A stretch of 64,000 nt of DNA. Source: Impatiens glandulifera (lineage: Eukaryota; Streptophyta; Magnoliopsida; Ericales; Balsaminaceae). Below are positions 19,064 through 62,587 of the stretch, piece after piece. A model generated the notes under the pieces. It saw only the letters and a list, made by a program, of their open reading frames with translations. It was not told the origin of the DNA and ran no database searches. The stretch lies in the NCBI RefSeq assembly GCF_907164915.1, contig NC_061870.1:2401501-2465500 (forward strand), read 5' to 3'. The translations under genes were made by a program, and so were the position numbers. Each line of letters begins with the position of its first letter. Position 1 is the stretch's first letter.

Positions 19064-19094
19064 ATTTCAGGAAAAGCTTAAGAATAGAAACAAT

Positions 19095-19106: not shown

Positions 19107-19108
19107 AT

Positions 19109-36710: not shown

Positions 36711-36944
36711 CTTCATATATCATATCACACATCGGGCAGAAACCCTTTTCTTCTCTTTCTCTTCTGCGCGCCTCTCTGTTGAAACCCTCCGACGTCGCCG
36801 AAACCAACCGCAATCAAGAACACTTCCGCCGAATCCGCCAATCTTCCGCCTGATTGAAGATCTCCTCCACCTCTCTTCAGATTGAATCGCGAAGAATTGG
36901 TTTCTCTCTCTCTCTCTAGTCCGATTGAAGGACCAAGGCCCTAG

Positions 36945-37457: not shown

Positions 37458-37943
37458 GTATTTCATTTTATTTGATTTTTTCTTTTTTGCATGTTTAGGG
37501 GAGATTCTTGTTCGTGCAAAATCTTTGGATTTGATTAGGACCTTAAACTATATATATGTCTACCTAGGACTTCACACATCTATACCTTATTAGGGTAGAT
37601 TCTTGTTTGTTCAAATTTTTAATCATCAACAGGTCTCAAGCAGTAAGTATGTTTGAGATTTGTTCTATTCTTTATTTTCTTAGATACTAACACTAACTAT
37701 TGGTGACCTGATTGTGAGGAATTAAGTATGCTTTTGTATAATTCTGATTCTTTATATCTGTTAATGCTGGTTGCATATAAGTTAATTTATTTTCTTTTTT
37801 TAGTATTAAAATGAGATTATTTGTAGCTGTAATCTCTCTATGATCACTAACTGAATTAAAATGAGATCAATTTCTCTATTGAAGTATATTGAATTCATTG
37901 TTGCTATGACAATATTCTAATATATACTTAATTTTTTTGTAGG

Positions 37944-38142
37944 TCGCTTTCACGGTGATCGACGGAGGAGCGACAATTCTCAACGTGGAGGGTCGTCGTT
38001 AAGAGAAGAGAACCAACATCTCCGGGCGTGGGTCAATGAACTGGAAGAGATAGTTCAATTTAATAACAAAAACACGCAAACACAGATTGCAGAAATATTA
38101 GCAAGGATATCGAATCAACCACCACAGCCACCGCCGAGTTAG
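37944..38142 (+). CDS. exon-like C-terminal ORF of CACTA-associated protein
   Basis: After a pyrimidine-rich AG at about 37941-37943, an open frame runs 65 codons to TAG. It contains SLREENQHLRAWVNELEEIV, a coiled-coil-like stretch, and a proline-rich end NQPPQPPPS. It may be the last exon of the element's own second gene or another captured fragment. I do not recognise it. Confidence 0.4.
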
Positions 38143-38389
38143 TACGTTTATTATGTAGTTTTTGGATAATGTTATCGTGTTTGGAACAAGTATGTTGTAT
38201 TATGTTTTTGGATTATGTTTTGGATTAGTACACGTGTGTTTGTAACACGTGTTTGTAATACGTATTGATTTCGAATTTTGGAAAATGTAATGAATTTTTT
38301 TTATTATTGTATTTATTTGGTTTGACTGATAATTAAACAGGTTAAGGTATGTAAAAAACAAACAAAATATTCAAAATCTGTAAAGAGAA

Positions 38390-38960
38390 AATACCGAAAG
38401 ATATATGCATATCTTTCGGCTAAAGCAATAAAGCAAACCGAAAGATATGCATATATCTTTCGGTAAAAGTAATAAAGCAAAATCGAAAGATATATGCATA
38501 TCTTTCGGTAAAAGCAATAAAGAAAAACCGAAAGATATATGCATATCTTTCGGCAAAAGCAATAAAGCAAAACCGAAAGATATGCATATATCTTTAGTTA
38601 AAAGCAATAAAGCAAAACCGAAAGATATATGCATATCTTTCGGTAAAAACAATAAGGCAAAACCGAAAGGAAGTGAAGAATAGCCGAAAGATATGCATCA
38701 ATCTTTCGGCAAAAGGATGTGAACCAGAGCCGAAAGATATGCATGAATCTTTCGGGAAAGTAAGTAAAGCAAAACCGAGAGATATACATAGATCTTTCGG
38801 TAAAGGAAGTAAAAGCATTTCCGAAAGATTTCACTAAAACTTTCGGGAAAGGATATACCGAAAGATATGAGAACTATTGGGTTAGGTCTCTACACTTTTA
38901 CCGACAAGATCAATACCGACGGATGCCGACAGTCTGACAGGCTGTCGGGAAAAGACTTTT
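38390..38960. repeat. CACTA right subterminal palindrome cluster
   Basis: About eight ~56-bp units, each a CCGAAAGATATATGCATATC-type near-perfect palindrome separated by AAAGCAATAAAGCAAAA spacers. Open frames here (38313-38834) are by-products of the repeats. Confidence 0.85.
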
Positions 38961-39342
38961 ACCGACAAATATAGGGCTTTTACCGAGAGTTTATACATTC
39001 GATAAAAGACCTATTTTTACTAGTGATAATTAAATATATTAAATCATTAATGTATTTATTTATTCACTATAATATATAAGAGTTGTAAGTTTATTTCTTT
39101 ATAATAATATAAAATTTCAATATATTACAATATATGTTATATTAAATAAATTCGTTTATATAATTTCATTGTATAAATTTTTTTATTTTTTTAAATATTT
39201 TATTAACGGTGCCTTTCAGGGATTCCCCGAAATCGAACAAAATTGAACGGGGCGGGGATGTTATTAAAAAAATCTCGAAATAAAAACGAGATAGGGATGA
39301 TAACTACATTCCTCGCCCCGAACCACCCCATTGACATCCCTA

Positions 39343-39681
39343 CTTGGTGGGGGCATAAAGAGGTGAATCCTTCTTTGTGTGATATTTTGTGTTGACAAAA
39401 TATTGATAATTTTAAGGTTAGTCATTGTTACTCTATAATAGCGGATAATGCTCCTTACAGTCTCAAATGGGATAAATTGTGGGACTTTAAGTTCCTATCG
39501 AAGTTCTCATTCTTTGGATGGAGAGTCATGCATGGAGGGATTTTGACAGATGATAAGTGCATGAAAAAGGGTGTATTATGACAAGTATTTGTAGAATGTA
39601 TCATAAAGAAGTGGAATTGATGCCTCTCTTGCTCTTACACTATGATGGAGTGATTGCGATTTGGTGCTTATTATGGAACAT
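39343..39681 (+). pseudogene. LINE ORF2 fragment, part 2 (zinc-binding domain)
   Basis: The frame near 39469-39580 reads LWDFKFLSKFSFFGWRVMHG, then ILTDDKCMKKGVL. This matches the zf-RVT pattern of plant LINEs (W---P-K--FF-WR-----L-T---L--RG). Stops follow. It is the continuation of 34440-34657, split by the hAT-like insertion. Confidence 0.65.
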
Positions 39682-41018
39682 TAATGGATTAAATTAAAAA
39701 AAGTAAAGAGAAAATTAATTAAGAAAGAAATAATTAATTAACTTAAGAGAATATGCACAACATAATTTTGATTGTATACTTTGAATAAAACTAAGTTGGT
39801 TATTTGCCGTTGTGCAAGTACAGATCTAAAGAAGATTGTTTATTCGGACGTGGTCTAAAGAGTGCGCGAGTTAGACGCAGTCTAACTCCTTCAAACGTGG
39901 TCTAAGGAGTGCGCGAGTAAACATCGTCTAAGTCCTTTAGACATGGTCTAAGTAGTGCGTGAGTAGACGTCGTCTAACTCTTTTAGTTGTGGTCTAAGGA
40001 GTGCACGAATTAGACGTCGTCTAACCTTCTTAGACGCGGTCTGAAGAAGAAGTATAGTTAGACGTCGTTTAAACTTCTTAGACGCGGTCTAAAGAAGAAG
40101 CGTAGTTAGACGTCATCCGACTTGATCAGACGTGCGAAGGAGCGTCTATTTCTATACTCAGCTCATCTACAGTGTTCATTATCAGCAGTCTGACAAGCCA
40201 ACTGATCTTAACAAATGAGAAACTACCATGTACGCTATTATTCAAATTGCCCGCATGTGTTGTACTATCTAGTACAACACAATCTCAGAGAATATTCGGC
40301 GCACTACTTGTCTGGTACGGCCACGATCCCAATGCTCATGCTCTTCTGTACGTTTGTACTATCGGCGACTTTCACGTGTCCAAGTAGAAAATTTGACCGT
40401 TGGTGTACTTCAAGTATAAATAGAAGTTCAAGGACAACGGAAAAAAATAAGACTATTTTATAACTGATTTTCTTAAGCTCTTGAATCCTTACGAATTTGC
40501 TCTTGCTAACTGATTGCGTAATCTCTCTCAAGCTCAAGTGCGAATTAATTACTCACTATGTGATTACTCTGTAATTCATCTATTGTCTTTTCTGTGTTTA
40601 TTCTCAGTGTTGTAAGTTGAACATAGGTTGTTCTGTTCAACAAAGAGGTAACTAAAAGTTCAAAACAGGCAGCCAGTTAAGTCATGGGTTTCTGACTGGG
40701 TTTGTGCAGTCGCTATACTAAATCAAAGTCTTATAGTGAAAATCCTTCATGTTGAGGAAGAAGGGGTGATGTAGGAGTTTTATCTCCGCACATCCATAAA
40801 ACTCCTTGTGTTATTTACTTTCTGTCCATTGCATTCATATGTCTGACACTTCAAATCCAACAAACTATTCCTTACTTGAACTTGTTCAAGAGTTTGTGAA
40901 GAATATAAACATGTTTTAACTTTTAAAAAAGTTAAAATTGAATTGAAAGTCATAAACTGTTAACTGTAGTTAGACCGTAGTTAGACCCCCGTCTCTAGTG
41001 TTAACACTAATCCTAACA
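39682..41018 (+). mobile_element. solo LTR of the AGAC-palindrome copia family, diverged
   Basis: It starts TAATGGATTAAAT (degraded TGTTGGGTCAAAT) and ends AATCCTAACA, flanked by AACAT at 39677-39681 and 41019-41023. A short palindrome array occupies about 39850-40130. A TATAAATA box lies at about 40423-40430, just before the conserved AAGGACAACGG motif. It is inserted in the LINE fragment. Confidence 0.8.
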
Positions 41019-44039: not shown

Positions 44040-44528
44040 ATTTGAATGAGGATAAACTTGAGGAGCCATTTAAAAAAAAAAAAGAGTGTGGAAATTTTTC
44101 TGATTTATATTGATTTCAATTTCAAATCAAATAATTATTTAAAGAATAAAATTTTTAAATAAAATTAATATTAATTTTAAACTTATCTACCTGATTTTTA
44201 TAATCTATCAATCAAATAAACTTTGATGCAAATCTTATTTAAAAAATATTAATATTAAAAAGGCTATAATTTAAAATAACAATGGAAAATGGTCAATCAA
44301 GAAGGTCAAAAGTCTCTATGTAAATTTTATTTTATAATTATTTGTAATAATTTTAAAAAAAATATATATTTAAATATAATAAATAATTTGTATTAATTTA
44401 CAAGTCTAAAAGATTGTTTTGAATTATTTAAATTTTCATTTCCTTTAAACATTTTGGGATTTGGGATTCTAATTTTGGTTTTCAAGTGGGAGAGAGCGCC
44501 ACATAGAAAACATTTGAAATTTGCAGAC
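44040..44528. promoter_or_regulatory. upstream region of the cyclin gene
   Basis: AT-rich sequence without a distinct core promoter that I can name. The transcript leader probably begins within the last ~150 bp. Confidence 0.3.
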
Positions 44529-44894
44529 ATGGCGGCTTCTCTGGCAACATGCCTTCTTATTCACCACCCTCCCAAATCACAGGCCATATCATCATCTCCT
44601 TCTTCATCGTCTTCTTCGCTTCTCCTGGTCTATCTTCTTCTTCTTTTAGGAAGAATCAATCATATAGGGCGTCGGGGTGCGAGAGAAATTAGGTATGACT
44701 GTCAAAGTAAACTCAGTGAGTGTTACTCGCTTCGGGAAGAAGAGGACAGCCGACACAATGGTCGGACAGGATTCTCATCTGCAGTCCCCCGCCAAGAAGA
44801 GATCCCTTCTCGATGGGATTTCCAATTTAAGTATTCCTACGGCTACCGATCTCGATACGGAACCTGGGAAGGTAAATTGCAAGGCTGTACGTGA
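44529..44894 (+). other. upstream ORF overlapping the cyclin start
   Basis: An ATG at 44529 opens a 121-codon frame beginning MAASLATCLLIHHPPKSQA, Ser-rich then Leu-rich. It ends inside the cyclin coding region in another frame. It could act as an inhibitory upstream ORF, or mark a leader acquired from a plastid-targeted protein gene. It has no domain and is not proposed as a separate gene. Confidence 0.35.
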
Positions 44895-45750
44895 AATTGA
44901 AGCTGCAGCCTCCAAGTTTGATGATTCTGAGATGTGCGATGGTTATGTAACTGAAATCTACGATTATCTTCATAACATGGAGAAAGAAGCAAAGAGAAGG
45001 CCGCTGCAAGACTATATCGACAAGGTGCAGAAAGATGTGACTGCAAACATGAGAGGGGTTTTGGTGGATTGGTTGGTGGAGGTTGCAGAAGAATACAAGC
45101 TTCAATCTGATACACTTTATCTTTCAATCACTTACATTGACAGATTCTTGTCTCTTAATCCTCTCAATAAGCAGAGGCTGCAGTTGCTTGGCGTTTCTTC
45201 AATGTCGATTGCATCAAAGTTTCAAGAGATTAATCCTCCAACACTTGATGACTTCTGCTACATCACAGATAACACTTACAAAAAGGAAGAGCTGGTGAAG
45301 ATGGAAGCCGATATACTTAAGTCTCTTCAATTCGAAGTGAGCAGCCCAACCATTAATACCTTCTTGAGAAGATTCTCCAGGATTTCTGAACAGGAACCCG
45401 AATATCCTGATTTGCAGTTTGAGTTATTGGGATGCTACTTGGCAGAGTTGAGTTTGCTGGACTATGGCTGTGTCAAGTTCTTGCCTTCCATGATTGCTTC
45501 TTCTATTGTATTTCTTTCCAGGTTTATGTTCCACCCTGATAAACATCCATGGAATGCAAACCTTGAAAAGTTTTCAGGATACAAACCTGCTGATTTACAG
45601 GAATGTGTTCTTCTTATACAAGACTTGCAGTTGGGTAAAAGAGAGGGCTCCTTGGTAGCAGTCAGAGACAAATACAACCAGCATAAATTCAAATATGTTG
45701 GCTTGATGAAGGGCCCTCTTCAAATACCCAATTTATACTTTGAAAGTTGA
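44695..45750 (+). CDS. A-type cyclin, CYCA3-like, intronless
   Basis: The ORF encodes 351 residues from the first in-frame ATG; the six codons before it start with GTG. Cyclins of this class bind and activate CDKs in S and G2 phase. Residues 36-44 (RSLLDGISN) fit the destruction box RxxLxxIxN. The cyclin N box (about 85-215) has MRGVLVDWLVEVAEEYKL at residue 119 and YIDRFLS. The cyclin C fold follows to about 340, including SPTINTFLRRF. The frame is uninterrupted, whereas plant A-type cyclins usually have introns, so a retrocopy is possible. The normally invariant IASKYEEI reads IASKFQEI. No poly(A) trace or flanking duplication was seen. Confidence 0.88.
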   Translation: MTVKVNSVSVTRFGKKRTADTMVGQDSHLQSPAKKRSLLDGISNLSIPTATDLDTEPGKVNCKAVREIEAAASKFDDSEMCDGYVTEIYDYLHNMEKEAKRRPLQDYIDKVQKDVTANMRGVLVDWLVEVAEEYKLQSDTLYLSITYIDRFLSLNPLNKQRLQLLGVSSMSIASKFQEINPPTLDDFCYITDNTYKKEELVKMEADILKSLQFEVSSPTINTFLRRFSRISEQEPEYPDLQFELLGCYLAELSLLDYGCVKFLPSMIASSIVFLSRFMFHPDKHPWNANLEKFSGYKPADLQECVLLIQDLQLGKREGSLVAVRDKYNQHKFKYVGLMKGPLQIPNLYFES

Positions 45751-47935: not shown

Positions 47936-48213
47936 GAATGGTGGAAATTATAGGAATGTTCAAGATAAAAGTGGTTAAAGGCACAAATTTAGTTGTCAAA
48001 GATATGTTGTCGAGTGATCCTTATGTTGTTCTTACTCTCGGACACCAGGTGAGTGAGTTGAGTCCAGTCCCGGTTTTTGTATCTTTTAAAAATGCTAATA
48101 TGATCAACTTTATATAGAAAGCGCAAACAACTATTATGATGAGTAATCTTAATCCTATATGGAATGAGGAGCTGATGTTTTCAGTGCCCCAGAATTATGG
48201 GCCGGTGCAATTG
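47936..48213 (+). CDS. AGD12: AGD12-like gene, first two C2-domain exons
   Basis: Exons at about 47936-48048 and 48118-48213 with canonical GT/AG sites encode the N-terminal half of a C2 domain. They read GMVEIIGMFKIKVVKGTNLV, KDMLSSDPYVVLTLG, then TTIMMSNLNPIWNEEL. The SSDPY and NP-W-E motifs include Ca/lipid-binding loop residues. In AGD12/ZAC proteins the C2 domain brings the ARF-GAP to phospholipid membranes. The exact start of the first exon is uncertain (47934 or 47936). The donor at 48214 begins the intron that contains element B. Confidence 0.75.
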
Positions 48214-48265
48214 GTAAAAAAAGAAGATTGCTTTGTGTTTTTAACAATTTTCGAAGATAATGAAA

Positions 48266-48270
48266 TTATA
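48266..48270. repeat. target-site duplication TTATA, left copy
   Basis: It precedes the left LTR of element B and is repeated at 62290-62294. Confidence 0.9.
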
Positions 48271-49497
48271 TGTTAGGATCGGGGACGCCCTTGGAGGACC
48301 GGGGTGTTTCCGGTTTCAGGAAGGGTGGCCGCTTACAACACACACACTACTTTGGTGATAGTCCGGTTAAAGACTAAAACCGTTCTCAGCACTGCACAAA
48401 CTGTCACAGACTCTTGAACCGGGTTCAAGGGCGGAAATGTCTGTTTCAGGTTGAAGCAACTTATGCGACTTTAGATGATGCAGGAGTCGGTTTTATGGAT
48501 ATGAGTGACCGGTTTTAGAAGTACGATTTGTTTGAGGTTTAGGTTAAGTAAGCAAGAAATGAAAGCAACGAAAGAACACGAGACAAGAATTTGTTTATGG
48601 ATGTTCTGAGCAAACCCTCCTACGTCACCCCTTCTTCTCAGGTTATGAGAAGGATCTCCACTAACTTTTATAGTTAACAACAGTACCTCCGGTCGAGCCC
48701 AACTTCGCTACTCGCCGGTTACACCAAACTCACACTTTGATGTAATACAACAACTTTACACAACAACACACAAAAGGCTTCCGGTTTTAGACACACCGGT
48801 TTTACAGTATAGGACTTTATCTCTCTAGAACTTAATGCTTTTCGTAATTCGTAGTGTACAACTTTCAGAACTGATGATGCTCACAACTACTGCATTAAAT
48901 GAAGACGTTTGATCTTCCTTTTATAGCTTAAAGTAGCCAACGGTTACTTTCTCCTCTCTCCTGCGGATTGGTCGATCATTATCACGCCTGATGCAGAAAG
49001 GTTGCTTGCACGCTTCATTTTCCTTAACACTTGGCAGTCATGCAGGCAGCTCTGAGCAGAAGATGACGTAGCCAGTTTTCAGATTTGGACACGTGTTGGG
49101 CATGCACCTCCGGTTGTCAACTTCGGATTAATAAAGCATCATTGCTTTCCTCGCATGCTTCTGATCGGATCCGATCTTCTTTTATTCTTTCAAGACACGT
49201 TTCTTCCGTCATGGTACGTCACTCTTGTAGTTTGAATATTCTGACTTTTATTCTGAACCTTCCGGTTTTTGTGTCTTGTGCAGTATGATCCGGTTGGAGT
49301 GAAAGTTTTTGTGTTGGCTAACCGGTCGCTTGAGAAAGTGAAAACCGGTTCCTCTGATCTTTTAACTTGATCACTTGAAACTGGTTTCTTTGAAGTATAG
49401 TAGCAACCGGTTTTGATCTGTACCTGCACATTAAGGTTAGCACCTGTTTAGTTCGTCTGGCCGGTTCCAAAAATTAATCTACTTAATTTTTCTATCA
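48271..49497 (-). repeat. 3' LTR of element B
   Basis: TGTTAGGATC to TTTTTCTATCA, the same length as the right LTR. A TATA box (CTATAAAAGG, minus strand) lies at about 48917-48926. It carries about sixteen CCGGTT-like hexamers and no AGAC array. Confidence 0.92.
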
Positions 49498-49752
49498 ATT
49501 TCTCTCTTTTTGATTATTTAGAATAAATATTCAAAAATTGTAATGTGTGGCCGGTTTAAAATTAATCTACTTAATTTTTCTATCAATTTCTCCCTTTTTG
49601 ATTATTTAGAATAAATATTCAAAACATGTAATATATGGCCGGTTTAGAAAAATTTGCTTACTAGCCAGTTAGAAAAATTAATCTACTTAATTTTTCTATC
49701 AATTTCTCCCTTTTTGATTATTTAGAATAAATATTCAAAACATGTAATATAT
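49459..49752. repeat. triplicated LTR-end plus polypurine-tract junction
   Basis: About 90-bp units begin near 49459, 49549 and 49664. Each contains GGCCGGTT, TTAATCTACTTAATTTTTC and TATCAATTTCTCCCTTTTTG. Each unit therefore reproduces the last ~35 bp of the LTR plus the polypurine tract. Only the first abuts the real LTR. A 27-bp partial unit lies between copies two and three. Confidence 0.85.
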
Positions 49753-49917
49753 GGCCGGTTTTGAAAAACATGTGTTCGATTGTTTTTGAAGAGGATTTTT
49801 CAAAAGCATGAGTTTGATTGTTTTAGCAAATATGTGAGAACCTATCAGAAAAAGCAAAGTAACCAAGTTCTGAAACATAGTAAGACATAATTGTTTGAGG
49901 TAAATAAAGGAAGAGAT

Positions 49918-52779
49918 TTAGGGCTTGGATGGTCCCCCCTTGTGTGGCTCCTTTTCCAGCTCCTTCTCCAACTGTCTTCTCTCTTCTTCTTTTCTTGCTC
50001 TCCACTCTCTATCACGTCTTTCGGCATCGATCAGCACACCGGCCCATACACTTGAGTGACCGGTGCCCTTATTCTTGAACCCGAAGTTGGCATAAACTGG
50101 TTTTGGTGGTGGAGGCGGTGGAGCATTCGAAGGTCTGAAGCTTGGAGTTGCGGTTGATCCTTCGGTTGTCCTTCTCTTTCGTTGATTAAGTTCCTCCGGG
50201 TCTTCTTCTTCTTCTTCATCAAGCGGTTGCGCATTTATCACGACCGGTAAATCTGTTTTCTGTTCTGCCCGCTTCATTACGTTCTTAACGGCGCTTCGCT
50301 TCTTCTTGTTCCTTGTATCCATTGAGTGGGACGATTGAACCGGTTGGAGTTTCTAGATGTTGGCCTGTTCTTCCTCGTTGCATTGTTGGGCAAGCGCGTA
50401 GTCTTTGTCTTCAATCTCCTTCTGTAACCGTTCCCTTTCTATCTCTTCCTCTTGCAATTTCTTTGCGGTTTCAGCATCCGTTTCGATTTGCGTTTGAGTT
50501 GTGCTGACTTGAACCTTGGACATTTCCCCGATTTGAATGGCCATTGCTTGCAGCATGTCCACTAATGGAGCGGTTGCGGTTTGGACGGACTCGGCGATCA
50601 AGGCTTTTATTGTTGTCTGCATGGCCGTGTCCATCATGGTCTTTAGAGAGTTTGACAGTTTATCTTCAGCCGTTGCAATTCTTTCGTCGGTTACGGTTTT
50701 AAAATTTCCAAGGCATGAGTCAACTGTTTCAGCCACCGCTTGCTTAATCTGATCAATTTCCGGAGCTTTGACCGGTTGAGGGGATTCTTGTTCCAGGTTT
50801 TCAGTGGTTCCGGATGTCTCTCCCCCTGTATAGAATGGCTTACTTTGATATAAGTCGGTATTGTTGAGTTGGCGTTAGCAACCTTTCCTCCATTGCATGT
50901 CAAAACGATCAAGATTTTGTACAAGCTGTTCTCGCACCGCAATAAACCGTTCGGCCATTCTCATTTCAATCGGAGATAGCGACTTTCCCTGAGTTTCTTG
51001 AAAGGCATTCTAAACTGCCTGTAACCGAGCGTTTTCAAGGATTACTGCAGCTTTGCTAAAAGCAGGTTGAATGAGGTTGGTGTTAGCTAACTGAAGTGCC
51101 CTCTCTTCCAGTTTGATGAGCCTGTCCCACTGTCTGTTACCACTTAAACCTGGAACCATGTCGGATAACTTGGTTTCGCATCTGAGCTTCACCCACAAGA
51201 TGTATGGAGCTAACGCATCACTCGCACCTTTGTTCATGTCTTGAATAAGTTCCTCGAAGATCTCATTTTCTTGCTCTGTGGTGTATGGACCCTCGTCTCC
51301 GGTTATGGCTTCTTGTTGAGGACAGGTTTGCAGCGTGCCCGTTCCGGTTACCGTTGTGTCTTCTATGAGAATCCCTTTGCCTTTGTTTACTTGAGTGGAA
51401 CCTTCAGGTGTTGTGGCTGGTTGGATTTCTGAGGTTGTCTTCCCTCCTGCGGAACCGGAAGGTTCCTGTTCTTCAAAATTTCCCTCCTGAGCCGGAGGTG
51501 TAATTTCTGTTGTATTGGTCGCCTCTTCGACCGGTTGAACTTCTGTCTGATCAGGTATCTCAGCCTGATCAACTGGCCTGCGACGACTTGACACATCGTC
51601 CTCTTCAGTTTCCCTTGCAATGTCTTGGATAACATCCTCAATTGCTTTGGAGGTGTTTAAGCCTACGTCGACTAGTACTTCTTCAATTCGCTTACTTGGT
51701 GATTTGGAGGTTTCAGAGTGAATGCCTACCTCTGCTCCCTCCTTGGAAACTGACTTGTTTATTTGGCTCCCCGAAGATTCGGTTTTCCTTGGAGAATGAG
51801 ATGGAATGAGAGTGGGGATAACTGTGTTGATGGGGATGGGTTGAAAGACATCTGCGGTTCTTTCCGGTGGATTGTCCGAGGAAAGCGTTTTCTCGGAGTC
51901 CGCCGGTTTCTTTGAACTTTTCTTCGCTGCTACCTTCTTCCTCCTCTTTGGTTCTGGTGGGGCTTCGGCTTCAACAGCTTTTCTTGCCGGTTTCTTCTGT
52001 CTGGTTTCTTCTTCAGCCGGAACCGAGGAACTGGCTCCCTTGGACGACTTTGTCCTTGAGGATTTGGGTTTGATCGTTTTCTCCGGTTTTTCGATCATAG
52101 ACTCTGAATCAAGAATGGTGGAGATCGGAAGCGGTTTGCCTTCACCTAGTTCCATATTGAGGAACTCAAGGATTTTAACGATTTGCATAGCAAAGGCCTG
52201 CACCCGGCCATCTTTCTTTATCACCATCTGGCAGAATTCTTCATAGATAACGTATCCCCAGTCCACCTTATCACAGCGAACAATGGCCAACAGCATTCTG
52301 AGCTTCAGTTTCGTTAGGTTGTCGAAATTGCCTCCCCTTCCCTAGATTGACCGGGCGATGACAGTCAACAACCATCTGTATTCTGGTTTGAGCTTAATCC
52401 TCTGGCTGTTGTGGATTACCAGATCCTGACCTGAGAGAGATACCACCAACCGGGCAGCATTTGATTCTGCATCGGTTAAGTCAATCTTTAGGTCCGAACC
52501 TGTGTTGGGCAGACCGAGAGCTTCAGCAAAAAGCTCTTTGGTGATGAGAATGGCCTTCCCGTTGACAGTCGCCGAGACCTTCCTCTTCGACAGTGTCGCC
52601 GTCGCCAAGAACTCCGTCACCGCCGCCGGATAGATGAAGAACGGGCCAGACAGAAACTTTTCCATCCCAGCATCCCTCAGAAGTTGAAGAACAGCCTTGT
52701 TCTTGTCTTCAGCATGTTCATCAATATCTGTGAAATCCACTTGTAACATCCATTGGAATGGAGCTTTGGTTAGATCCAT
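49918..52779 (-). pseudogene. element B gamma ORF: long 3' ORF, 954 codons with four in-frame stops
   Basis: One frame from ATG 52779 to TAA/TAG at 49918 has nonsense codons at 52342 (TAG), 51010 (TAG), 50875 (TAA) and 50353 (TAG) and no frameshift. The N-terminal ~200 codons are the shared 3'-ORF domain (GMEKFLSGPFFIYP, ALGLPNTG, MLLAIVR...VDWGYVIYEEF). Next is a long disordered Ser/Lys/Glu-rich segment, then a helical, Gln/Glu-rich stretch (about 50700-50360). The end is charged and proline-rich (PPPPPPKP; KELEKEP). The architecture parallels the E3 long ORF but lacks its RGG tail. Function unknown. Confidence 0.65.
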
Positions 52780-52892
52780 GATGAATTTGTGAAGAAGATA
52801 TGAAGATCGATGAAGATTGGAGAGATGAGCGCTTTGAAGATTTGAAGATTTGTAGAGAGAGAAAGCACAAGTGTTGAATATGATGATATGAA

Positions 52893-52902
52893 CTTATATA
52901 CA
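52893..52902 (-). promoter_or_regulatory. TATA box upstream of gamma
   Basis: GTATATAAG on the minus strand, about 115 bp before the gamma ATG, followed by a T/C-rich leader. Confidence 0.5.
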
Positions 52903-53278
52903 TGGCGGTTCTGAGCGGTTTGAAGATGAACCGTCAATTTGATACTTTTGGCGCCAACTTTCCCTCCAAAAGTTACTGCCGTAACTTTCGGCGGTAAAAG
53001 CGGAAATTCAATGGGCGGTAAAATTTGGGGGTAAAACCGTGGGCGGTTAATATTTTCAAATTTTCACTTTTGCTCGAAGTTCCGGTTTCACTTGAAGTCT
53101 TTGTTAACCGGAAGTTTTTAAGTTAACGTTAAGTTTTGGAAAACCGGAGGAAAGGATATGAGTAAATATTCGAGACTTTGGAAATTAACTGTTTCATTAA
53201 TAAAGTGAACATTAAGCGGTTCTGGTCGTACAGCAAAATGACCAGAAACCGGAAAGGAAAAATAGAAAAGTAAGAAAA
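52903..53278 (-). other. beta-gamma spacer
   Basis: Contains the putative gamma promoter region and the 3' end of beta; CCGGTT-rich, no ORF. Confidence 0.4.
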
Positions 53279-54040
53279 TTAATCTTCTGTGAACCAACCC
53301 CCTTCCATCCTCCTTTCATACCATTTTTCAATGGTGTTTTGAGGAAACCGTTCCTCAATTCTTGACAACCACCTATGAATCATGAGTATGGTGATGGTGT
53401 TGGATGGTCCAACCGGAACACCGGTTCTAAGGTTGCGACGTTTGGACATCAGAAACCGAGTGATTTGAGGAGCATAACTGATCCTTCCTCTTGCAGCGGT
53501 CATGAGCTGCTTCAGTTTGTTGTAGAGGTAAGATGCCCAGTTAATGGCTGAGTTGCGAATGATGGCTATCATAATGTCGAATGCTTCCCGGCTGTAGTTC
53601 TGGTTAGGCATCCGGCCTATGATAGACCTTTGGACCAAATCATGAAAGAGTTGGTAGTGAGGAGCGAGATTTTCTTTCTTCCCAAAGTCCTTGATAGGAG
53701 TGTAGGAAGAAGAAAAGATCTTGAAAAAGGTTTCCTTAGCCGGTAAGAACGGCGTTGGAAAATCAGAAAAACCTTCGGTCGGAAGGTGAAAGAAGGTGGC
53801 GAATTCCTCCTCGGTAAACTGGAAGAATTGGCCGTCGACGATGGTGCGGATGCTGCCATCATCCAAAATGTGACCATTGTTGAAAAATTCACACACCTCC
53901 TCTTCGAGGATGGTGTCTGAACCCTTAAGGAAACCTTGCAACCCAGAATCTATGATGTGCTGAAAAATGCAATCATAGTATGAGCTATCTTTGATATCCT
54001 CAAAGTCGATGATAAGGGTGTTTCTTAGTTCGGCAGACAT
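53279..54040 (-). CDS. element B beta ORF: intact 253-residue 3' ORF protein
   Basis: Uninterrupted from ATG 54040. It shares with E1, E2 and alpha the block order: DSGLQGFLKGSD, a central FFHLPTEGFSDFPTP, and FDIMIAIIRNSAINWASYLY, then a basic C-terminus. No signal peptide, membrane segment or catalytic motif is visible. In plants such proteins are annotated as putative plant transposon proteins. It sits between alpha and gamma with its own TATA box. Intactness alongside a broken pol suggests recent duplication or relaxed time for decay; expression is unknown. Confidence 0.7.
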   Translation of the reverse strand: MSAELRNTLIIDFEDIKDSSYYDCIFQHIIDSGLQGFLKGSDTILEEEVCEFFNNGHILDDGSIRTIVDGQFFQFTEEEFATFFHLPTEGFSDFPTPFLPAKETFFKIFSSSYTPIKDFGKKENLAPHYQLFHDLVQRSIIGRMPNQNYSREAFDIMIAIIRNSAINWASYLYNKLKQLMTAARGRISYAPQITRFLMSKRRNLRTGVPVGPSNTITILMIHRWLSRIEERFPQNTIEKWYERRMEGGWFTED

Positions 54041-54135
54041 GATGATGGAAGTTTGAGAGAGGATTTTTCTTAGCTTTCAAGTTTTAGAGAGAAGAAGTGC
54101 TTGGAGGCGTGTTTTGAAAATGAAAGATTGAGCCT

Positions 54136-54145
54136 CCTTTTATAG
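54136..54145 (-). promoter_or_regulatory. TATA box upstream of beta, LTR-like
   Basis: The minus strand reads AAGCTATAAAAGGAGG. The element's own LTR has AAGCTATAAAAGGAAG around its TATA box. It lies about 100 bp before the beta ATG, followed by a C/A-rich leader. Confidence 0.6.
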
Positions 54146-54459
54146 CTTGGAATGGATGAGAGCATTTAATGAGAGGATTTGAAAAATCTAGCCGTTTATG
54201 TCTAGTCATTAATATCTTTGTGATTTTCCAAGAGAATAAAGGCATGTCTTGTCTAGTCAAGTCAGGCATGCTTTTTGATAATGAGAATTTTTGTGTTTCC
54301 AAGAGTGATACGATTTATTTTGATATGGCACATTGAATATTTTAGATTTTGACTTGAAAGAGGAAAGAAATCTGATTCATTAATCGAGGTACAAAACCGG
54401 TAGTACAGCAAAATTACCGGTTTTGTGAAAAGAGATAAAAGGAAAGAAGGAGAAATAGG
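54146..54459 (-). other. alpha-beta spacer
   Basis: Short AT-rich spacer with the probable beta upstream region; no ORF. Confidence 0.4.
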
Positions 54460-55197
54460 TTAGACATTTGATGACTCAGCCGCTTGATTTCTTCTGGCTT
54501 TGACAGTTTCCCACCGGTCGATCATCTCTTGTACTCTTTCCTTGGTGAGCACATGCCTTGGGTGAAGAGTGACGAAGGGTCCAGAGTGGATGTCCAGACT
54601 TGCACAGAAACCGCTCAGCTGAGGGGCGTAGCCGGTTTTGTTGGATATGAGCATCTTCTTCAGGTTGCTGAAGATGATCCAGGACCAGTTAACCGGTGTC
54701 CCAACCGTTACAGCGATCATCATCTCGAAGAGCCTTTGAGTGTAATAGTAATTTTTCTCTCTGCACAAGACAGATTTTCCCAGAATCTCGCAGAGAAGCT
54801 GGTACTTATGAGAAAGTTGACTTTTGGCACCCCAGGGTTTAACCGGGATATCTGATCCTGAGAACCGGCGACACATCTCTTCCATTGTCACCGGGGAGTA
54901 TGTTAAGTCGGTTACCCCTTCATTGGGTAGACCGCAGTATACAGCGAAATCCGTCTCGCTGAATAGAAAATTTTGACCGTAAACTTGTGCAACGATGATA
55001 TCTCGGTGCACTTCCTTTCCGGTTTGGAAGAGTTCTTCGACTACGAGGTAGTCAAGGATGAATCTGTTCTCAAGAAAACTTCTTAGCCCGCTCCTTTCTA
55101 TGGCTAAGAACATTTCCTTGACTTCGTGATCTTCATATTGGTAGATTGAGTTAAAATCTGCCAATAGAATTTTCTTTGCTAAAGAGTTGGTGTTCAT
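54460..55197 (-). CDS. element B alpha ORF: intact 245-residue 3' ORF protein
   Basis: Uninterrupted from ATG 55197. Shared motifs: RSGLRSFLENRFI near residue 35, YCGLPNEGVTDL near 90, and RLFEMMIAVTVGTPVNWSWI near 160, followed by FSNLKKML. It is the first coding unit downstream of pol. Sequence divergence from beta and gamma is large (only motifs align by eye), so the triplication is old or the copies evolved quickly. No membrane segment is seen. Confidence 0.7.
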   Translation of the reverse strand: MNTNSLAKKILLADFNSIYQYEDHEVKEMFLAIERSGLRSFLENRFILDYLVVEELFQTGKEVHRDIIVAQVYGQNFLFSETDFAVYCGLPNEGVTDLTYSPVTMEEMCRRFSGSDIPVKPWGAKSQLSHKYQLLCEILGKSVLCREKNYYYTQRLFEMMIAVTVGTPVNWSWIIFSNLKKMLISNKTGYAPQLSGFCASLDIHSGPFVTLHPRHVLTKERVQEMIDRWETVKARRNQAAESSNV

Positions 55198-55277
55198 GTT
55201 CTTGAGAGAGAAGATTTATCTCAAGAATGATATTTGTGAATAGTGATCTTGTGAAGTTTTGTGAAGGATTAGGGGTG

Positions 55278-55287
55278 ATTTATATAG
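55278..55287 (-). promoter_or_regulatory. TATA box upstream of alpha
   Basis: CTATATAAAT on the minus strand, about 80 bp before the alpha ATG, followed by a leader rich in CTTCACAA and TCTCTCAAG. Confidence 0.55.
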
Positions 55288-55900
55288 CCAGGGGATTCGA
55301 CTAGGTTTTAATGAGTTTAAGCATGCCTGATGATGTCATCAGCTAATTAATAGACTTTAACTTGTTGAAGTAACTAATGGTTATTTCCAAGGTAAATCTA
55401 ATTATTACCAAGATAGCAATGATGAAAAATATCTATTGACAAGATGTGAGTCTCTCTCTCTTGATGATGGACACATGTCGTCATCTCGATTGTGGTAGAC
55501 TTGTTTTTATTAATTACAGGCTTCATTTGTCAAAGTATGCATGAAAACTTAGTCAGTCATCTCAGGTTAACCGGAAAAGTTCATTTTATCAGACCAGAAT
55601 GCATTTGTACTAAGCGGTTTTCCATGACCGGTTTTAGTAGGATATTTCCGTTTGTGAAGAAAAGTTGATTAGTGTCAACATTTGTTCAACTTTGGATTTG
55701 TCTTATCCACTTCAGCCCGGTTATTTCAACCGTATAGTAAACATACATTTTGATTCGAAATTATGAAGTAATCGGGCATAACCGGAGATTTCCTCCCGGT
55801 TAGCATATTTGATTTATTAATGGCCTATTTGAATATGGTTTGAGAAGCTTTAGCTTCTCCCTGAACACATATCCCAGTTTCTTCCATGCATACATGATGA
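55288..55900 (-). other. pol-alpha spacer of element B
   Basis: No ORF. AT-rich with a few CCGGTT motifs; unlike E1-E3 it lacks AGAC palindromes. Confidence 0.5.
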
Positions 55901-57961
55901 TTATATCAATTGATTAAGATTAGTAAGTCCCAAGATATTTCGAAAGTGAGAGAACTTAGTTTCCTGTAGCGGTTTTGTAAATATATCCGCTACTTGTTGC
56001 TCGGTCGAGACATATTCCAGCCGGATGTGTTTCTCCTGAACATGCTCCCGGATGAAATGGTGTCGGATGTCGATATGCTTTGTTCTTGAGTGCAACACCG
56101 GATTGTATGTAATCGCTATGGCGTTGGTGTTGTCACAAAAGATTGGAGACTCCTTGGATTCTATTCCGAAATCCCTTAGTTGCTGTTGGATCCAGAGGAG
56201 TTGTGCACAGCAGCTTCCAGCCGCTATGTACTCCGCCTCTGCGGTTGATGTTGCAACGGACGTTTGTTTCTTGCTGCTCCAAGTGACTAACCGGTCACCC
56301 AAGAATTGACAGGTTCCACTTGTACTCTTTCGGTCGATTTTGCATCCTGCGTAATCGGCATCTGAGTAGCTTATTAGATTGAAACTTGAGTCTTTTGGGT
56401 ACCAAAGTCCCACTTCTTGAGTTCCCTTTAGATATTTTAGAATTCTTTTGGCCGCCGTATAATGAGACTGCTTTGGATTTGCTTGGAACCTCCCGCACAC
56501 TCCAACCGCAAACAGAATATCAGGTCGACTAGCTGTTAGATATAGCAGCAATCCGATCATTCCTCGATATGCTGTGATGTCAACGGCTTAACCATCATCA
56601 TCTTTGTCCAGCTTCACGGAAGGACTCATTGGCGTAGCCGCTTCGGCACATGTATCCATCCCAAACTTCTTCAGCAGTTCGGCTGTGTACTTTGGTTGGC
56701 TTATGAACGTTCCGGCTTCAATCTGCTTAACCTGAAGTCTTAGAAAGAAACTCAATTCTCCCATCATACTCATTTGAAATCTATCAGTCATCATTTTCGA
56801 AAATTTATCACATAATTTTGGATCGGTTGATCCGAATATGATATCGTCAACATAAATCTGAACAAGTAGAATTTGTTCCTTCCTTTCAAATTTGAAAAGT
56901 GTTTTGTCTACCGAACCTATTGTAAATTTGTGATCAAATAAAAATTGTGTTAATGTATCATACCAAGCTCTTGGAGCTTGTTTCAAACCGTAAAGGGCTT
57001 TATTCAGCCGGTAAACGTGATTTTAATGTTCTGGATTTTTAAAACCTGGAGGTTGGTTAACATTCACCTCTTCATTTACCTTACCGTTTAGAAAAGCACT
57101 CTTAACATCCATTTGAAAGACTTTGAAATTTTTGAAAGCTGCATATGCTAAAAATATTCTAATGGCCTCAAGTCTAGCTACAGGGGTAAATGATTCTTCA
57201 AAATCAACGCCTTCTTCCTGTTTATAGTCTTGAGCCACTAATCGGGCTTTGTTCCTCGTAACTAAACCGTCTTCATTGAGTTTATTTCTGAATACCCATC
57301 GTGTTCCTATAACCGGTTTGTTTTTCGGTCTAGGGACTAGGTACCAGACTTTATTTCTCTCAAACTCGTTTAATTCCTCTTGCATTGCCAAGATCCAATC
57401 TGGATCTGACAACGCTTCATCCACCTTTTTTGGCTCAATTTGTGATATGAAAGCAGAGTTTCCATAGTAATCCAAATTTTGTTGCCTAGTTCGGACGGGT
57501 GAGGATATGTTACCTATTACTAGTTCAAGAGGATGATTTTTGTTCCTTCTGAGGTTAATCCGAGACGTGTCTACCAAGCTTTCGGTTGGCTGATCAAGGT
57601 TAGACTGATCGGTAGGCTGAACAGATTCAGACCGACCGATTTCTTCAGTAGAAACCGAAGCGTCAACTTTCTGCGGTAAGGCAGCTTGATCAGGCTGAGT
57701 TTCAGCATCAACCGCTTGGTCCTTGACAAAGCGTCTAAAAACCGGAACCTCGTCTTCATCATCAGAATAGATATTAAAATTTTCCATTCTGTTGTGAAGG
57801 TCGAAGGGTAATGCAGTGTTTCGCTCAACCGATTCATCGAAAACAACGTGTGCGGTTTCTTCAACTGTTAAAGTCCTAGTATTATATACTCTGTAGGCTT
57901 TACTCACAACTGAATATCCCAACATTATTCCCTCATCGGATTTAGCATCAAAAGCGGTCAA
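55901..57961 (-). pseudogene. element B reverse transcriptase and RNase H
   Basis: One frame with stops at 57023 (TAA) and 56588 (TAA). RT segments are [68 protein letters not shown] and the catalytic [10 protein letters not shown]. RNase H includes SYSDADYAGCKIDRKSTSG, STAEAEYIAA and TNAIAI, then HIDIRHHFIREHV and ADIFTKPLQETKF. The catalytic Asp residues are present. Only the two nonsense codons prevent translation. Confidence 0.9.
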
Positions 57962-58006
57962 GTAATTCTTGTCGTTATTGTGAACAAAACATTTACTACC
58001 AAAAAT

Positions 58007-58498
58007 TCAAAAATACCGTACACTTGGAACTTGATCAAAGTAAATTTCAAAAGGAGTTTTAGAAAACCGTTTAGTTACTAAAGATCGATTTTGTGTATAG
58101 CACGCGGTGTTGATAGCTTCAGCCCAAAACTTTTGAGCGATACCCGAATCGGCTATCATTGACCTTGCGGCTTCCTTGAGAGTTCGGTTTCTTCTCTCAG
58201 CCAGGCCATTTTGTTGAGGAGTTCTGGCACTAGACAACTCGTGCCTAATACCGGAATCATCAAGAAAAGTAGTTAAGTTACTGTTTATAAACTCAGTTCC
58301 TCTATCACTTCTGATTTTATTCACTCGAATAGATTTTTCATTCTGTATTCTCAAAATCAGTTTAATCAAGTTTGGAGTTGCTTGATTCTTAGAAGCTAGA
58401 AAAGTAACCCAAGTAAATTTTGAGTAATCATCAATAACTACCATAGTATAATGCATGCCTCCTAAACTAGTTACTTTAACCGGACCAAACAGATCCAT
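58007..58498 (-). pseudogene. element B integrase core
   Basis: An open stretch of 163 residues with the DDE residues visible: MVVIDDYSKFTW, IRSDRGTEF and TPQQNGLAERRNRTLKEAAR. A TGA at 58007 separates it from the downstream link to RT in the same frame. A frame change lies between it and the upstream protease region (58498-58558). Confidence 0.9.
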
Positions 58499-58557
58499 AT
58501 GCAGGAGTTCTAAGCATCGTTCAGATTAATAATTTCCTTTATTTTTGAAATATGATT

Positions 58558-59166
58558 TCACTTGTTTGCCCATTTGACATGCCCCGCACATACTTTGTCT
58601 TTTGAAAACTTAACATTTGGAAAACCGTGAACTAGTTCCTTGGAATAAATAAAGTTAATCGTTTTGAAATTCAAGTGGTTTAACCGTTTATGCCAAAGCC
58701 AGTTTGGATCATTTCCGGCTATCATACACACAGGTTTTTCGAAATTAGTTTTCCAATTTACTTTGTAAATGTTTCCTATCCGGTTACCGGTTAGCAAAGT
58801 GTCATTATCTTGATTTTTGACTAGGCATGAGTTTTTATGAAATTCAACTTTGTAGCCCACATCACACATTTGGCTTATGCTTAACAGATTAAAGCTTAGT
58901 TTTTCTACCAATAGTACATTACTTATGGATAAATCACCATGGACAATCTTACCCTTGCCCACGGTTTTACCTTTCGAGTTGTCTCCGAATGTGATGACTG
59001 CTCCGGTTTCGTACTTGATGTCGGTCAGTAGCTCCTTGTTTCCGGTCATATGCCTTGAGCATCCACTGTCCAAGTACCATTCAGAATTCTTTAACCGGTT
59101 GCTCCTCCTAACCTGTAACAAACAATTATTTACACCTTTTTGGTACCCACATTTAGTTGGGTCCAT
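58558..59166 (-). pseudogene. element B protease and pre-integrase region
   Basis: WYLDSGCSRHMTGNKEL carries the aspartic protease active site. WLWHKRLNHLNFKTIN and CAGHVKWANK form the pre-integrase zinc-binding part. The listed ATG at 59166 is internal to what should be a gag-pol continuation; the gag end and protease are in different frames here. Confidence 0.85.
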
Positions 59167-59262
59167 GGTTGATTAGTCCCTTTGGGATCCAGACTTGAAT
59201 GAGTCGGATCACTTTCCCGGTTATTGTTTTGATAATATTTGGCTTAACTTCTTGGCTGTTGC

Positions 59263-61017
59263 TCAAGAATGCCTTATGTGGTGATGGGCTTCTTTGATGT
59301 CGGGTTTTATTTGGTTTACTTGGTTTCCGGTTGATTTCCTTCTCTCAGGATGAAGCCATTTTTCAGATTCGTTAGGACTTACATACTTAAGCGTTTCTTC
59401 CGGTTTTAGGTCATTTTCGGTTTGTGAACTCTTGACAAATTTTATAAATGGAAGATTATTTTTCGTGAGTTTCATCCCGTTAGATTGTTTTGTTTCATTT
59501 TGTTTATTTGGTTCATAACCGATACCATACCTACACTTCGGATGTCTTTTATAGTTACACATTTGTTTCACTGCTTGACGTGATCTCTCCCACGCAGCCG
59601 TGACGTACATTGCTCGTTCATCGGTTTCGGTTACCGGTTGAACTGTCTTCTCATTGTCGGAGAATAGTTCATCCGGTTCATACATTTCGATTTCACATGT
59701 TTTATCATATACATTATTTGTTTGTTCGGTTTTAGGTTCTACAGGAGTTGGTATGTACGCAGATATGTTTCTAAACTCAACAACCATTTGGTTGAGTACA
59801 GAAACCAGATCTTCTTTAGTAAACTCATCAGAAGAGAAATCAAATACCTCTTTGTCGTTTGCCATGAAGCAGGTTACTTTCTCTTCACCATCTTCATTAT
59901 CGGAGTATGCCCACTCGCTTCCACCGTCGGATGCAATGAGTGCCTTTTGAATCTCCTTTCCTTCATCAGAATGTTGATCATCATTCCTCCGGTAGTCGTT
60001 TCGTTGGTTGTTAATATTTCCCCGATAGTTGTTCCCTTGGTAGTTGTTTCCCTAATACCGGTTGCCTTGATAGTTATTCCCTTGATAATTGTTTCATTGA
60101 TAGTTTCCTTCCGGTTTTCTATCGTCTCTTCTTGGTTTTCTACACTCTGACCTGAAATGTCCAAAACCATCACAGTTATAACATCTCTTGTTTGATTTAT
60201 CTACATAGTTATAATTAAAGTCATTATTAGATGGTGGTTGGCTCTTCTTCATGAATTTCCCGAATTTCTGAGCTAGCATCGCCATCACATCGTCGGTAAT
60301 TTGATCGGTGTTTTTGACTGGAGCCGGTGCGGTTGATACTTGGGCCGCCGGTTCCACCGATGTAACCAAAGCTCTAGTTGTGGTTGATGTGGATGCTTCA
60401 TCTTCGATCCGAGACTTGATCTCGAATTCGTAGGCTTTCAAGTCCTCGAACACATCATGCAACTTCATCTGCCCAAGGGTGCTCGATTCCCTCATCACCA
60501 TGGTCTTGATATCCCACGTGCTTGGCAAAGATCTTAGGGCTTTGATGATCACTTCTCGGTTGTCATACTTCGTTCCGAGTGTTTGAAGCTCGTTGACTAC
60601 ACTGGTGAACCGGTTGCTGAATTCCTTCATGTTTTCCCCCGGTTTCATCCGTATATTTTCATATTTTTGTGTAGCCACCAAGATTTTGTTCTCCTTGGTT
60701 CTTTCGTTTCCCTCGTGGATCTGAATAATCGTTTCCCAGGCTTCCTTTGCATTTTCACACTCTGATATTTTGTTCAAAGTGTTATTATCTATAGCCTTAT
60801 AGATGTGCCTCATGCAATGGTTGTCCAGGTTACTCCGTCTTCGATCTTCACTCGTCCATAGGTTTTCCTCCTTGTTGATCTTGATCGGTCCCTCTTTCAA
60901 GACTCGGCTCATCTCATCATCTAACGTAATCAGATGTAGATACATCTGTTTCTTCCAACTGCTAAACGCTTCGCTGTTTAGCATTGGCGGCTTGTCGCTG
61001 TGGGTCATGCTTCCCAT
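59263..61017 (-). pseudogene. element B Gag with CCHC knuckle and GNNYQ repeats
   Basis: ATG at 61017, 34 bp downstream of the primer-binding site. The copia Gag region (SWKKQMYLHL, NAKEAWETI, GENMKEFSNRF) is followed by CYNCDGFGHFRSEC near residue 275. Next is a glycine/asparagine/tyrosine/glutamine repeat (about 60110-60000) of NNYQG-type units. A C-terminal acidic region then resembles E3 Gag. TGA at 60094 and TAG at 60052 interrupt the repeat. A frame change lies near 59340. Confidence 0.85.
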
Positions 61018-61050
61018 CTTCGTTGGTTGTTTGAGTGCTAAGAACCTCGC

Positions 61051-61062
61051 TCTGATACCACT
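61051..61062 (-). other. primer-binding site of element B
   Basis: The minus strand reads AGTGGTATCAGAGC just inside the LTR, complementary to initiator Met tRNA. It defines the right LTR as 5'. Confidence 0.9.
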
Positions 61063-62289
61063 TGTTAGGATCGGGGATGCCCTTAGAGGACCGGGGTGTT
61101 TCCGGTTTCAGGAAGGGTGGCCGCTTACAACACACACACTACTTTGGTGATAGTCCGGTTAAAGACTAAAACCGTTCTCAGCACTGCACAAACTGTCATA
61201 GACTCTTGAACCGGGTTCAAGGGCGGAAATGTCTGTTTCAGGTTGAAGCAACTTATGCGACTTTAGATGATGCAGGAGTCGGTTTTATGGATATGAGTGA
61301 CCGGTTTTAGAAGTACGATTGGTTTGAGGTTTAGGTTAAGTAAGCAAGAAATGAAAGCAACGAAAGAACACGAGACAAGAATTTGTTTATGGATGTTCGG
61401 AGCAAACCCTCCTACGTCACCCCTTCTTCTCAGGTTATGAGAAGGATCTCCACTAACTTTTATAGTTAACAACAGTACCTCCGGTCGAGCCCAACTTCGC
61501 TACTCGCCGGTTACACCAAACTCACACTTTGATGTAATACAACAACTTTACACAACAACACACAAAAGGCTTCCGGTTTTAGACACACCGGTTTTACAGT
61601 ATAGGACTTTATTTCTCTAGAACTTAATGTTTTTCGTAATTCGTAGTGTACAACTTTCAGAACTGATGATGCTCACAACTACTGCATTAAATGAAGACGT
61701 TTGATCTTCCTTTTATAGCTTAAAGTAGCCAACGGTTACTTTCTCCTCTCTCCTGCGGATTGGTCGATCATTATCACGCCTGATGCAGAAAGGTTGCTTG
61801 CACGCTTCATTTTCCTTAACACTTGGCAGTCATGCAGGCAGCTCTGAGCAGAAGATGACGTAGCCGGTTTTCAGATTTGGACACGTGTTGGGCATGCACC
61901 TCCGGTTGTCAACTTCGGATTAATAAAGCATCATTGCTTTCCTCGCATGCTTCTGATCGGATCCGATCTTCTTTTATTCTTTCAAGACACATTTCTTCCG
62001 TCATGGTACGTCACTCTTGTAGTTTGAATATTCTGACTTTTATTCTGAACCTTCCGGTTTTTGTGTCTTGTGCAGTATGATCCGGTTGGAGTGAAAGTTT
62101 TTGTGTTGGCTAACCGGTCGCTTGAGAAAGTGAAAACCGGTTCCTCTGATTTTTTAACTTGATCACTTGAAACTGGTTTCTTTGAAGTATAGTAGCAACC
62201 GGTTTTGATCTGTACCTGCACATGAAGGTTAGCACCTGTTTAGTTCGTCTGGTCGGTTCCAAAAATTAATCTACTTAATTTTTCTATCA
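61063..62289 (-). repeat. 5' LTR of element B
   Basis: 1,227 bp, same boundaries and TATA position as the left LTR. Its plus-strand end, TACTTAATTTTTCTATCA, lies 16 bp from the AGD12-like exon and is T-rich. Confidence 0.92.
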
Positions 62290-62294
62290 TTATA
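62290..62294. repeat. target-site duplication TTATA, right copy
   Basis: Matches 48266-48270; followed by CATGCATGCAG, the splice acceptor of the last AGD12-like exon. Confidence 0.9.
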
Positions 62295-62305
62295 CATGCA
62301 TGCAG

Positions 62306-62587
62306 GAAGTGTATGACTATGATACATTTTATGCTGATGACATAATGGGTGAGGCAGATATTGATATACAATGGATGATAAGTTCTGCAATGGTATATGG
62401 GGATGCTGCAATGTTTGGAAACATGCAAATTGGGAAATGGCTAAAGGCGGATGATAATGCCCTCGTAGAAGACAACACTGTAAATATAGTCGATGGAAGG
62501 GTGAAGGAGGAAGTGAGTCTTAAGCTAGAGAATGTGGAATCGGGAGAGATTGATCTAGAACTAGAATGGATTCCTCTTGAGCAATAA
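62306..62587 (+). CDS. AGD12: AGD12-like gene, last exon (C2 domain end)
   Basis: Acceptor GCAG at 62302-62305. The 93-codon exon joins in frame to 48213 and reads EVYDYDTFYADDIMGEADID, MQIGKWLKADDNAL, VNIVDGRVKEEVSLKLENVE, ending DLELEWIPLEQ. The D-Y-D-----DD pattern supplies C2 calcium-binding residues. This is the typical C-terminus of AGD12/ZAC-type proteins. The C2 half is fully intact, unlike the ARF-GAP half. Its intron is now about 14.1 kb because of element B. Confidence 0.85.
   Translation, partial: EVYDYDTFYADDIMGEADIDIQWMISSAMVYGDAAMFGNMQIGKWLKADDNALVEDNTVNIVDGRVKEEVSLKLENVESGEIDLELEWIPLEQ

Follow-up and report, generated by a model that had tools for sequence, protein, structure and literature searches.

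Element B, a SIRE-type copia long terminal repeat (LTR) retrotransposon of Impatiens glandulifera, carries three homologous open reading frames (ORFs), alpha, beta and gamma, between pol and its 3' LTR. The element lies in a 64,000-nucleotide stretch of contig NC_061870.1 (positions 2,401,501 to 2,465,500; hereafter the window, in whose numbering all coordinates are given). We propose that the three ORFs encode nuclear DNA-binding proteins resembling the VANC proteins of Arabidopsis VANDAL transposons, which would be produced from TATA promoters of their own, recognise the hexamer AACCGG and counter host silencing. We regard this reading as evenly poised between right and wrong. It draws on the homology and predicted fold of the ORFs, their conservation across the family, the dense distribution of AACCGG in the element, and the TATA boxes upstream of each ORF.

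Protein comparisons show that alpha, beta and gamma are homologous far beyond chance. Alpha and beta are 29% identical over 225 columns (E = 2e-28), while beta matches the first piece of gamma at E = 2e-9 and the gamma region of the window at E = 8e-15. These results uphold the initial annotation, which described three diverged copies of one domain, and the ORFs, including the interrupted gamma, were located at the lengths it gave (Table 1). The shared order of motifs that it reported (G-L..F-L, LP-[TN]-[ET]-G and F..M...NW) is likewise present, although gamma deviates in two of them, with GM for GL and VDW for NW. As it had also claimed, a related domain occurs once in each of three other elements of the window, namely E1 (2308-3014, in two pieces), E2 (6053-6763) and E3 (15596-16285). 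The gamma of B has in-frame stops at approximately 52342, 51010, 50875 and 50353; in another copy of the element, all three ORFs are uninterrupted and encode 253, 253 and 947 amino acids. In gamma, the shared domain is followed by a long linker containing the basic cluster KRRKK, a part that appears coiled-coil-like by eye, and a basic proline-rich end; KKKR and RKRR are further basic clusters of this protein.

The predicted folds of alpha and beta, the two of the three ORFs that were modelled, agree, as the kinship claimed for them would have it. Both models have the same order of structural elements and the same best match in the PDB, the DNA-binding part of VANC21; no other solved structure stands out. 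The match is moderate, and the VANC21-like fold of the shared domain is a prediction from these two models. A search of a viral structure library gave a best E of 0.67, a sequence search of the PDB returned nothing but a low-complexity match to TBP, and no relatives were confirmed among viral contigs. When alpha, beta and gamma were scanned against Pfam, neither DUF1985 nor DUF287 was listed, and for 61 aligned sequences neither is among the 25 of 40 families listed. The PF20167 (Transposase_32) profile matched uninterrupted gamma at 34.3 bits (E = 2.8e-8) and beta at 13.5 bits, with no match to alpha. None of the scanned B-family proteins reaches its curated cut-off of 45 bits, and 32 of the 61 aligned sequences match it at E 1e-3 or better.

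We assembled 31 copies of the element from the 654-Mb assembly, comprising B, 20 copies anchored on gamma and 10 anchored on RNase H. The gamma-anchored sample represents 20 of the 39 other places matching the gamma probe (ranks 2-22, with one short-contig place omitted). The RNase H search scored 150 genome places from 22,553 first-look candidates, and ten of the 149 other places were taken stepwise down the list, blind to what follows pol. Alpha, beta and gamma occur in this order in all 20 gamma-anchored and all 10 RNase-H-anchored copies. The initial annotation had called for a count of copies per element and had left room for a rearrangement private to B; the latter is ruled out by the triplet in 30 of 30 other copies, and relatives with a single ORF were not met among those examined. 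ORF pieces of the ten RNase-H-anchored copies share 69-95% protein identity with B, and the triplet is thus older than several subfamilies. By contrast, none of four E2-type elements, picked for their long open frames from 149 other rows of a separate search, showed another such domain at E 1e-3 in the 3.6 kb that follow; one of the four has a foreign element in that stretch.

Selection was estimated by the Nei-Gojobori method as the ratio of nonsynonymous to synonymous substitution rates (dN/dS), excluding any copy in which the piece was frameshifted or held three or more stops; the copies share descent and the tests are not independent. Over the copies, dN/dS was 0.06 for RNase H (18 copies out of the 21 in which it is present), 0.09 for alpha (28 of 31) and 0.14 for beta (28). 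The four successive pieces of gamma gave 0.11 (30), 0.17 (23), 0.16 (28) and 0.28 (28). Comparison of B-like copies with eight diverged copies yielded 0.08 for alpha (seven diverged copies), 0.13 for beta, and 0.09, 0.16, 0.14 and 0.29 for the gamma pieces. Purifying selection acts on all three shared domains, which are constrained almost as strongly as RNase H. Separately, two proteins annotated as Impatiens sesquiterpene synthase 2-like (P0128) and acetylajmalan esterase-like (P0129) contain gamma and beta pieces with 53-96% identity; these are exonised element fragments or faulty gene models.

VANC21 binds the word YAGTATTAY and VANC6 different ones; within the corresponding family each such word is dense and frequently repeated in tandem (PMC5735166). 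We therefore sought over-represented words in B using order-1 models and shuffles; an order k-2 Markov model masked AACCGG, because its sub-words are enriched as well. AACCGG occurs 85 times in B compared to 4.7 times in dinucleotide shuffles (maximum 10 in 200), and is the top hexamer in all 31 copies. It reaches 13 sites per kb in each LTR and is also found in gag-pol, in each of the three ORFs and in every linker, with 58 sites in the sense and 27 in the antisense orientation. The sites are not arranged as a tandem array, the tandem repeats detected in B being the polypurine/LTR-start repeats and a short gag repeat. The coding pieces of B hold 38 sites against 10.6 expected from synonymous-codon shuffles (standard deviation 3.0, maximum 21 in 2000).

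These sites are also better retained than control words. Between the 21 B-like copies (B included) and the eight diverged copies, 71% of AACCGG sites are shared. The 305 control hexamers reach 37% and those containing CG 41%, and one of the 65 controls with at least five sites equalled AACCGG. Sharing in coding DNA was 69% versus 38% for controls, none of 41 being as good. In non-coding DNA it was 78% versus 40%, but the six CG controls there reached 73%.

E-type elements differ in their motif. AACCGG is scarce in them (one site in E2 pol, none in the E2 3' region, none in E3 gag, three in the E3 gamma-like frame and one in one LTR). ACGTCTA occurs 23 times in the same LTR and six times beside the E2 ORF, with none in the E3 gag or gamma-like frames; its clusters lie in the LTR tandem repeats and upstream of the E3 ORF (approximately 16490-16968). 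B has in AACCGG a dense motif specific to its family, in place of which the E elements carry ACGTCTA. Two counts weigh against this contrast: the window outside B contains 24 sites where 8.3 are expected, and six occur in one of the four E2-type stretches, the one with the foreign element. LTR-like tandem arrays of E type rich in ACGTCTAA were observed at 1156-1829, 4836-5474, 11827-12766, 20101-21676 and 30519-31428; with 123 copies in the window, this sequence represents a second family-specific motif system beside AACCGG. Repeated motifs that differ from family to family, most of them built on a CGG-CCG core, have been described in Sirevirus LTRs and before the env gene, with no binding factor named (PMC2829016). 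The ORF product is a candidate for this factor.

Each of the three ORFs is preceded by a TATA box (Table 1), which in each case is present in 30 of the 31 copies, located 87-100 nt (alpha), 95-113 nt (beta) or 112-129 nt (gamma) upstream. Identity of the box between groups is 0.99, whereas the stretches upstream of alpha, beta and gamma reach 0.75, 0.70 and 0.73, respectively; better conserved windows number one of 94, two of 144 and none of 144. Pyrimidine-rich leaders lie downstream of the boxes. An internal promoter for the Sirevirus env gene has been hypothesised, though none was found (PMC2829016), and the TATA boxes of B are candidates for such promoters. In addition, a hairpin follows both alpha and beta. 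Its loop is retained with at most two mismatches in all 31 copies at both sites, the stems of the two hairpins are unlike in sequence, and some stems are poor (e.g., after alpha in copy L034). Covariation in the beta hairpin is mixed, since one pair is changed on both sides in four copies (L013, L017, L023 and L038) and on one side only in four others (L014, L019, L026 and L027). The loop contains UGUA, an upstream element of plant poly(A) signals; possibly, though this is a guess, the hairpins are 3'-end signals with UGUA as the poly(A) element.

These observations suggest a model in several steps. Each ORF would be transcribed from its own promoter. The basic clusters of gamma would bring it into the nucleus, where alpha and beta may arrive on account of their size. 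The shared domain would then bind AACCGG along the element, and the density of sites would gather the proteins on their own family. Methylation would be lost there, leaving the LTR and internal promoters active. The three proteins may recognise site variants, form heteromers or act at different stages. We infer rather than observe that any of the three binds AACCGG, acts in the nucleus, opposes silencing or divides the labour with the others.

Other explanations were weighed against this model. The ORFs might encode sequence-specific DNA-binding regulators that control how the element is transcribed from its LTR and internal promoters, with no part in anti-silencing. The fold and motif evidence would serve this idea equally, AACCGG is densest in the LTRs, a TATA box lies upstream of each ORF, and other Sireviruses have repeated motifs before the env gene (PMC2829016). 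Yet AACCGG enrichment in the coding DNA of gag, pol and gamma exceeds the needs of promoter control, and the sole solved structure to stand out is that of an anti-silencing protein; we consider this alternative unlikely, if the strongest of those at hand. Next, and also improbable, is that AACCGG serves a host factor or RNA packaging or export, with the ORF proteins engaged in something unrelated such as RNA binding or chaperoning. The sense bias of the sites and the structured hairpins after alpha and beta would agree with a role in RNA. However, antisense sites are enriched too (27 versus approximately 2.3, i.e., half of 4.7), E-type families with other ORFs carry another motif, and the closest fold is that of a DNA binder. 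We think it very doubtful that these are envelope-like or movement proteins, as suggested for SIRE1-type elements. Their location between pol and the 3' LTR would fit (PMC7264820), but the highest 19-residue Kyte-Doolittle mean among six ORF pieces is 1.27, so that by hydropathy none has the membrane-spanning segment of a retroviral envelope, in keeping with the doubt voiced in the initial annotation, and both the basic clusters of gamma and the match to a DNA binder speak against such roles. That the ORFs are captured or decaying passengers is scarcely credible, for although the gamma and gag-pol frames of B are broken, the ORFs persist in 30 of 30 copies and the dN/dS of the shared domains (0.08-0.14) rules out neutrality.

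The element itself is a complete SIRE-type copia retrotransposon. Its LTRs of 1227 bp differ at 12 positions (99.02% identity), and a 5-bp target site duplication (TSD), TATAA, was read from the sequence at both ends. A primer binding site (PBS), TGGTATCAGAGC, directly follows the 5' LTR and is complementary to the initiator tRNA-Met, as expected of SIRE elements. The pol ORFs (58010-58525, 57026-58006, 56591-57022 and 55904-56587) place integrase before reverse transcriptase, with RNase H last, which is the domain order of Ty1/copia SIRE elements (domains named by inspection); RNase H is intact (55904-56587, minus strand). Sireviruses are described as having several polypurine tracts (AGGGGGAG) grouped upstream of the 3' LTR (PMC2829016); in B the tract stands there in three copies, but with AAAAAGGGAGA and AAAAAGAGAGA as variants. 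A 15/30-nt repeat at 60015-60105, within gag, encodes an asparagine-rich stretch of NNYRGN type. A tRNA scan detected none, and 48200-62400, hairpins included, had no match to Rfam at the gathering score.

Table 1. Coordinates of element B and its features in the window.
Feature	Position	Strand	Remarks
Element B, complete SIRE-type copia LTR retrotransposon, 14,019 bp	48271..62289	-	LTR pair, TSD, PBS
5' LTR	61063..62289	-	16 AACCGG sites
gag-pol region, several frames interrupted	55901..61062	-	
TATATAA, 89 nt 5' of alpha ATG	55280..55286	-	
alpha ORF, 245 aa	54460..55197	-	VANC21-like fold (predicted)
Hairpin after alpha, 12-nt loop AUUUUGCUGUAC	54380..54460	-	fold z -5.2
TATAAAA, 104 nt 5' of beta ATG	54138..54144	-	
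beta ORF, 253 aa	53279..54040	-	VANC21-like fold (predicted), match weaker than that of alpha
Hairpin after beta, identical 12-nt loop, different stems	53200..53280	-	fold z -4.1
TATATAA, 121 nt 5' of gamma ATG	52894..52900	-	
gamma ORF, 954 codons	49918..52779	-	four in-frame stops in B
Three 95-nt repeats, each polypurine tract and first bases of LTR	49470..49768	-	
3' LTR	48271..49497	-	16 AACCGG sites

We also compared the domains in trees with 32 Dorcoceras relatives, which are based on short diverged domains and midpoint rooting, with partial E sequences and long branches. Alpha and beta are sisters with support of 100 in both the half-domain and the whole-domain tree. In the half-domain tree gamma groups with E3 (83) and E1 with E2 (99). 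The whole-domain tree, which lacks the partial E sequences, instead unites alpha, beta and gamma (93), and together the trees do not show the single tandem triplication of the initial proposal. Alpha and beta look like a duplication in place that copied the hairpin along, whereas gamma could be either an earlier copy within this element or a domain captured from an element like E3; the E3 tail matches a gamma-type protein weakly (E = 2.7e-4). Among the 120 of 238 Dorcoceras relatives listed, inspection by eye showed no triplet of consecutive locus tags. Among the matches listed there was one consecutive pair, F511_40010 and F511_40011, for which the recorded contigs differ in size. Within flanking repeats that are 87% alike, E3 (10811-21857) has gag (17315-19066) and then a gamma-like ORF (13196-16285), and nothing that separates the two matches pol; it has the look of a non-autonomous SIRE element that carries only gag and the 3' ORF. 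Elsewhere in the window, two long plus-strand ORFs lie in a CGCGTA-rich stretch (44454-45750), and 33600-39800 is satellite-like with a GC content of 0.30, containing CGAAAG 49 times and CCGAAA 53 times where 2-3 are expected.

The closest parallels are VANC21 and VANC6, which B resembles in the predicted domain fold and in a dense family-specific short motif (PMC5735166). In contrast to B, an LTR retrotransposon with a PBS, a 5-bp TSD and three such genes, VANC is carried by a VANDAL (Mu-like) DNA transposon; VANC proteins contain DUF1985/DUF287, to which the B ORFs have no sequence match, and AACCGG differs from VANC motifs in containing CG and in occurring also in coding DNA. The envelope-like gene of Sireviruses (eORF-3'F) is, as in B, a sense ORF placed after pol and before the 3' LTR, and 74% of SIRE elements have it (PMC6317226). 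B differs in having three such ORFs, homologous to one another and each preceded by a conserved TATA box. That survey counted ORFs of at least 250 codons only, and alpha, with 245, would be overlooked by it. The Sirevirus motif is a CGG-CCG palindrome confined to the LTR and linker (PMC2829016), while in B a half-site is spread over the whole element. PF20167 and Athila ORF1-type proteins relate to B through the gamma match (E = 2.8e-8), and a partial match to PF20167 has been published for an Athila 3' ORF (PMC11728184). Retand has extra TRP28 ORFs between pol and the 3' LTR that are probably DNA-binding, with a proposed regulatory role, but Retand is a Ty3/gypsy element and its ORFs are antisense with another domain (PMC11963269). 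Plant elements are said to be able to carry three additional env-type 3' ORFs (PMC11728184), and whether extra ORFs of LTR retrotransposons shape methylation has already been raised with VANC as an example (PMC12844716). Neither a VANC-type fold in an LTR retrotransposon nor a triplicated SIRE 3' ORF appeared in the titles and abstract openings of the matches listed, subscription literature lying mostly outside these.

A broader proposal, which we hold more tentatively and rate somewhat short of even, is that the "envelope" genes of Sireviruses are the retrotransposon counterpart of VANC, with family-matched motifs (AACCGG in B, ACGTCTAA in E-type elements), three promoters in B, and sites selected in coding DNA. 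The factor binding the Sirevirus motifs and the existence of an internal promoter are left open in PMC2829016. The VANC-like reading of B joins these two questions and the role of the Sirevirus 3' gene in one testable proposal, in which each gene has a TATA promoter and a VANC-like protein goes with a motif of its own. If true, sequence-specific anti-silencing would extend beyond Mu-like transposons and serve LTR retrotransposons too, a major component of large plant genomes.

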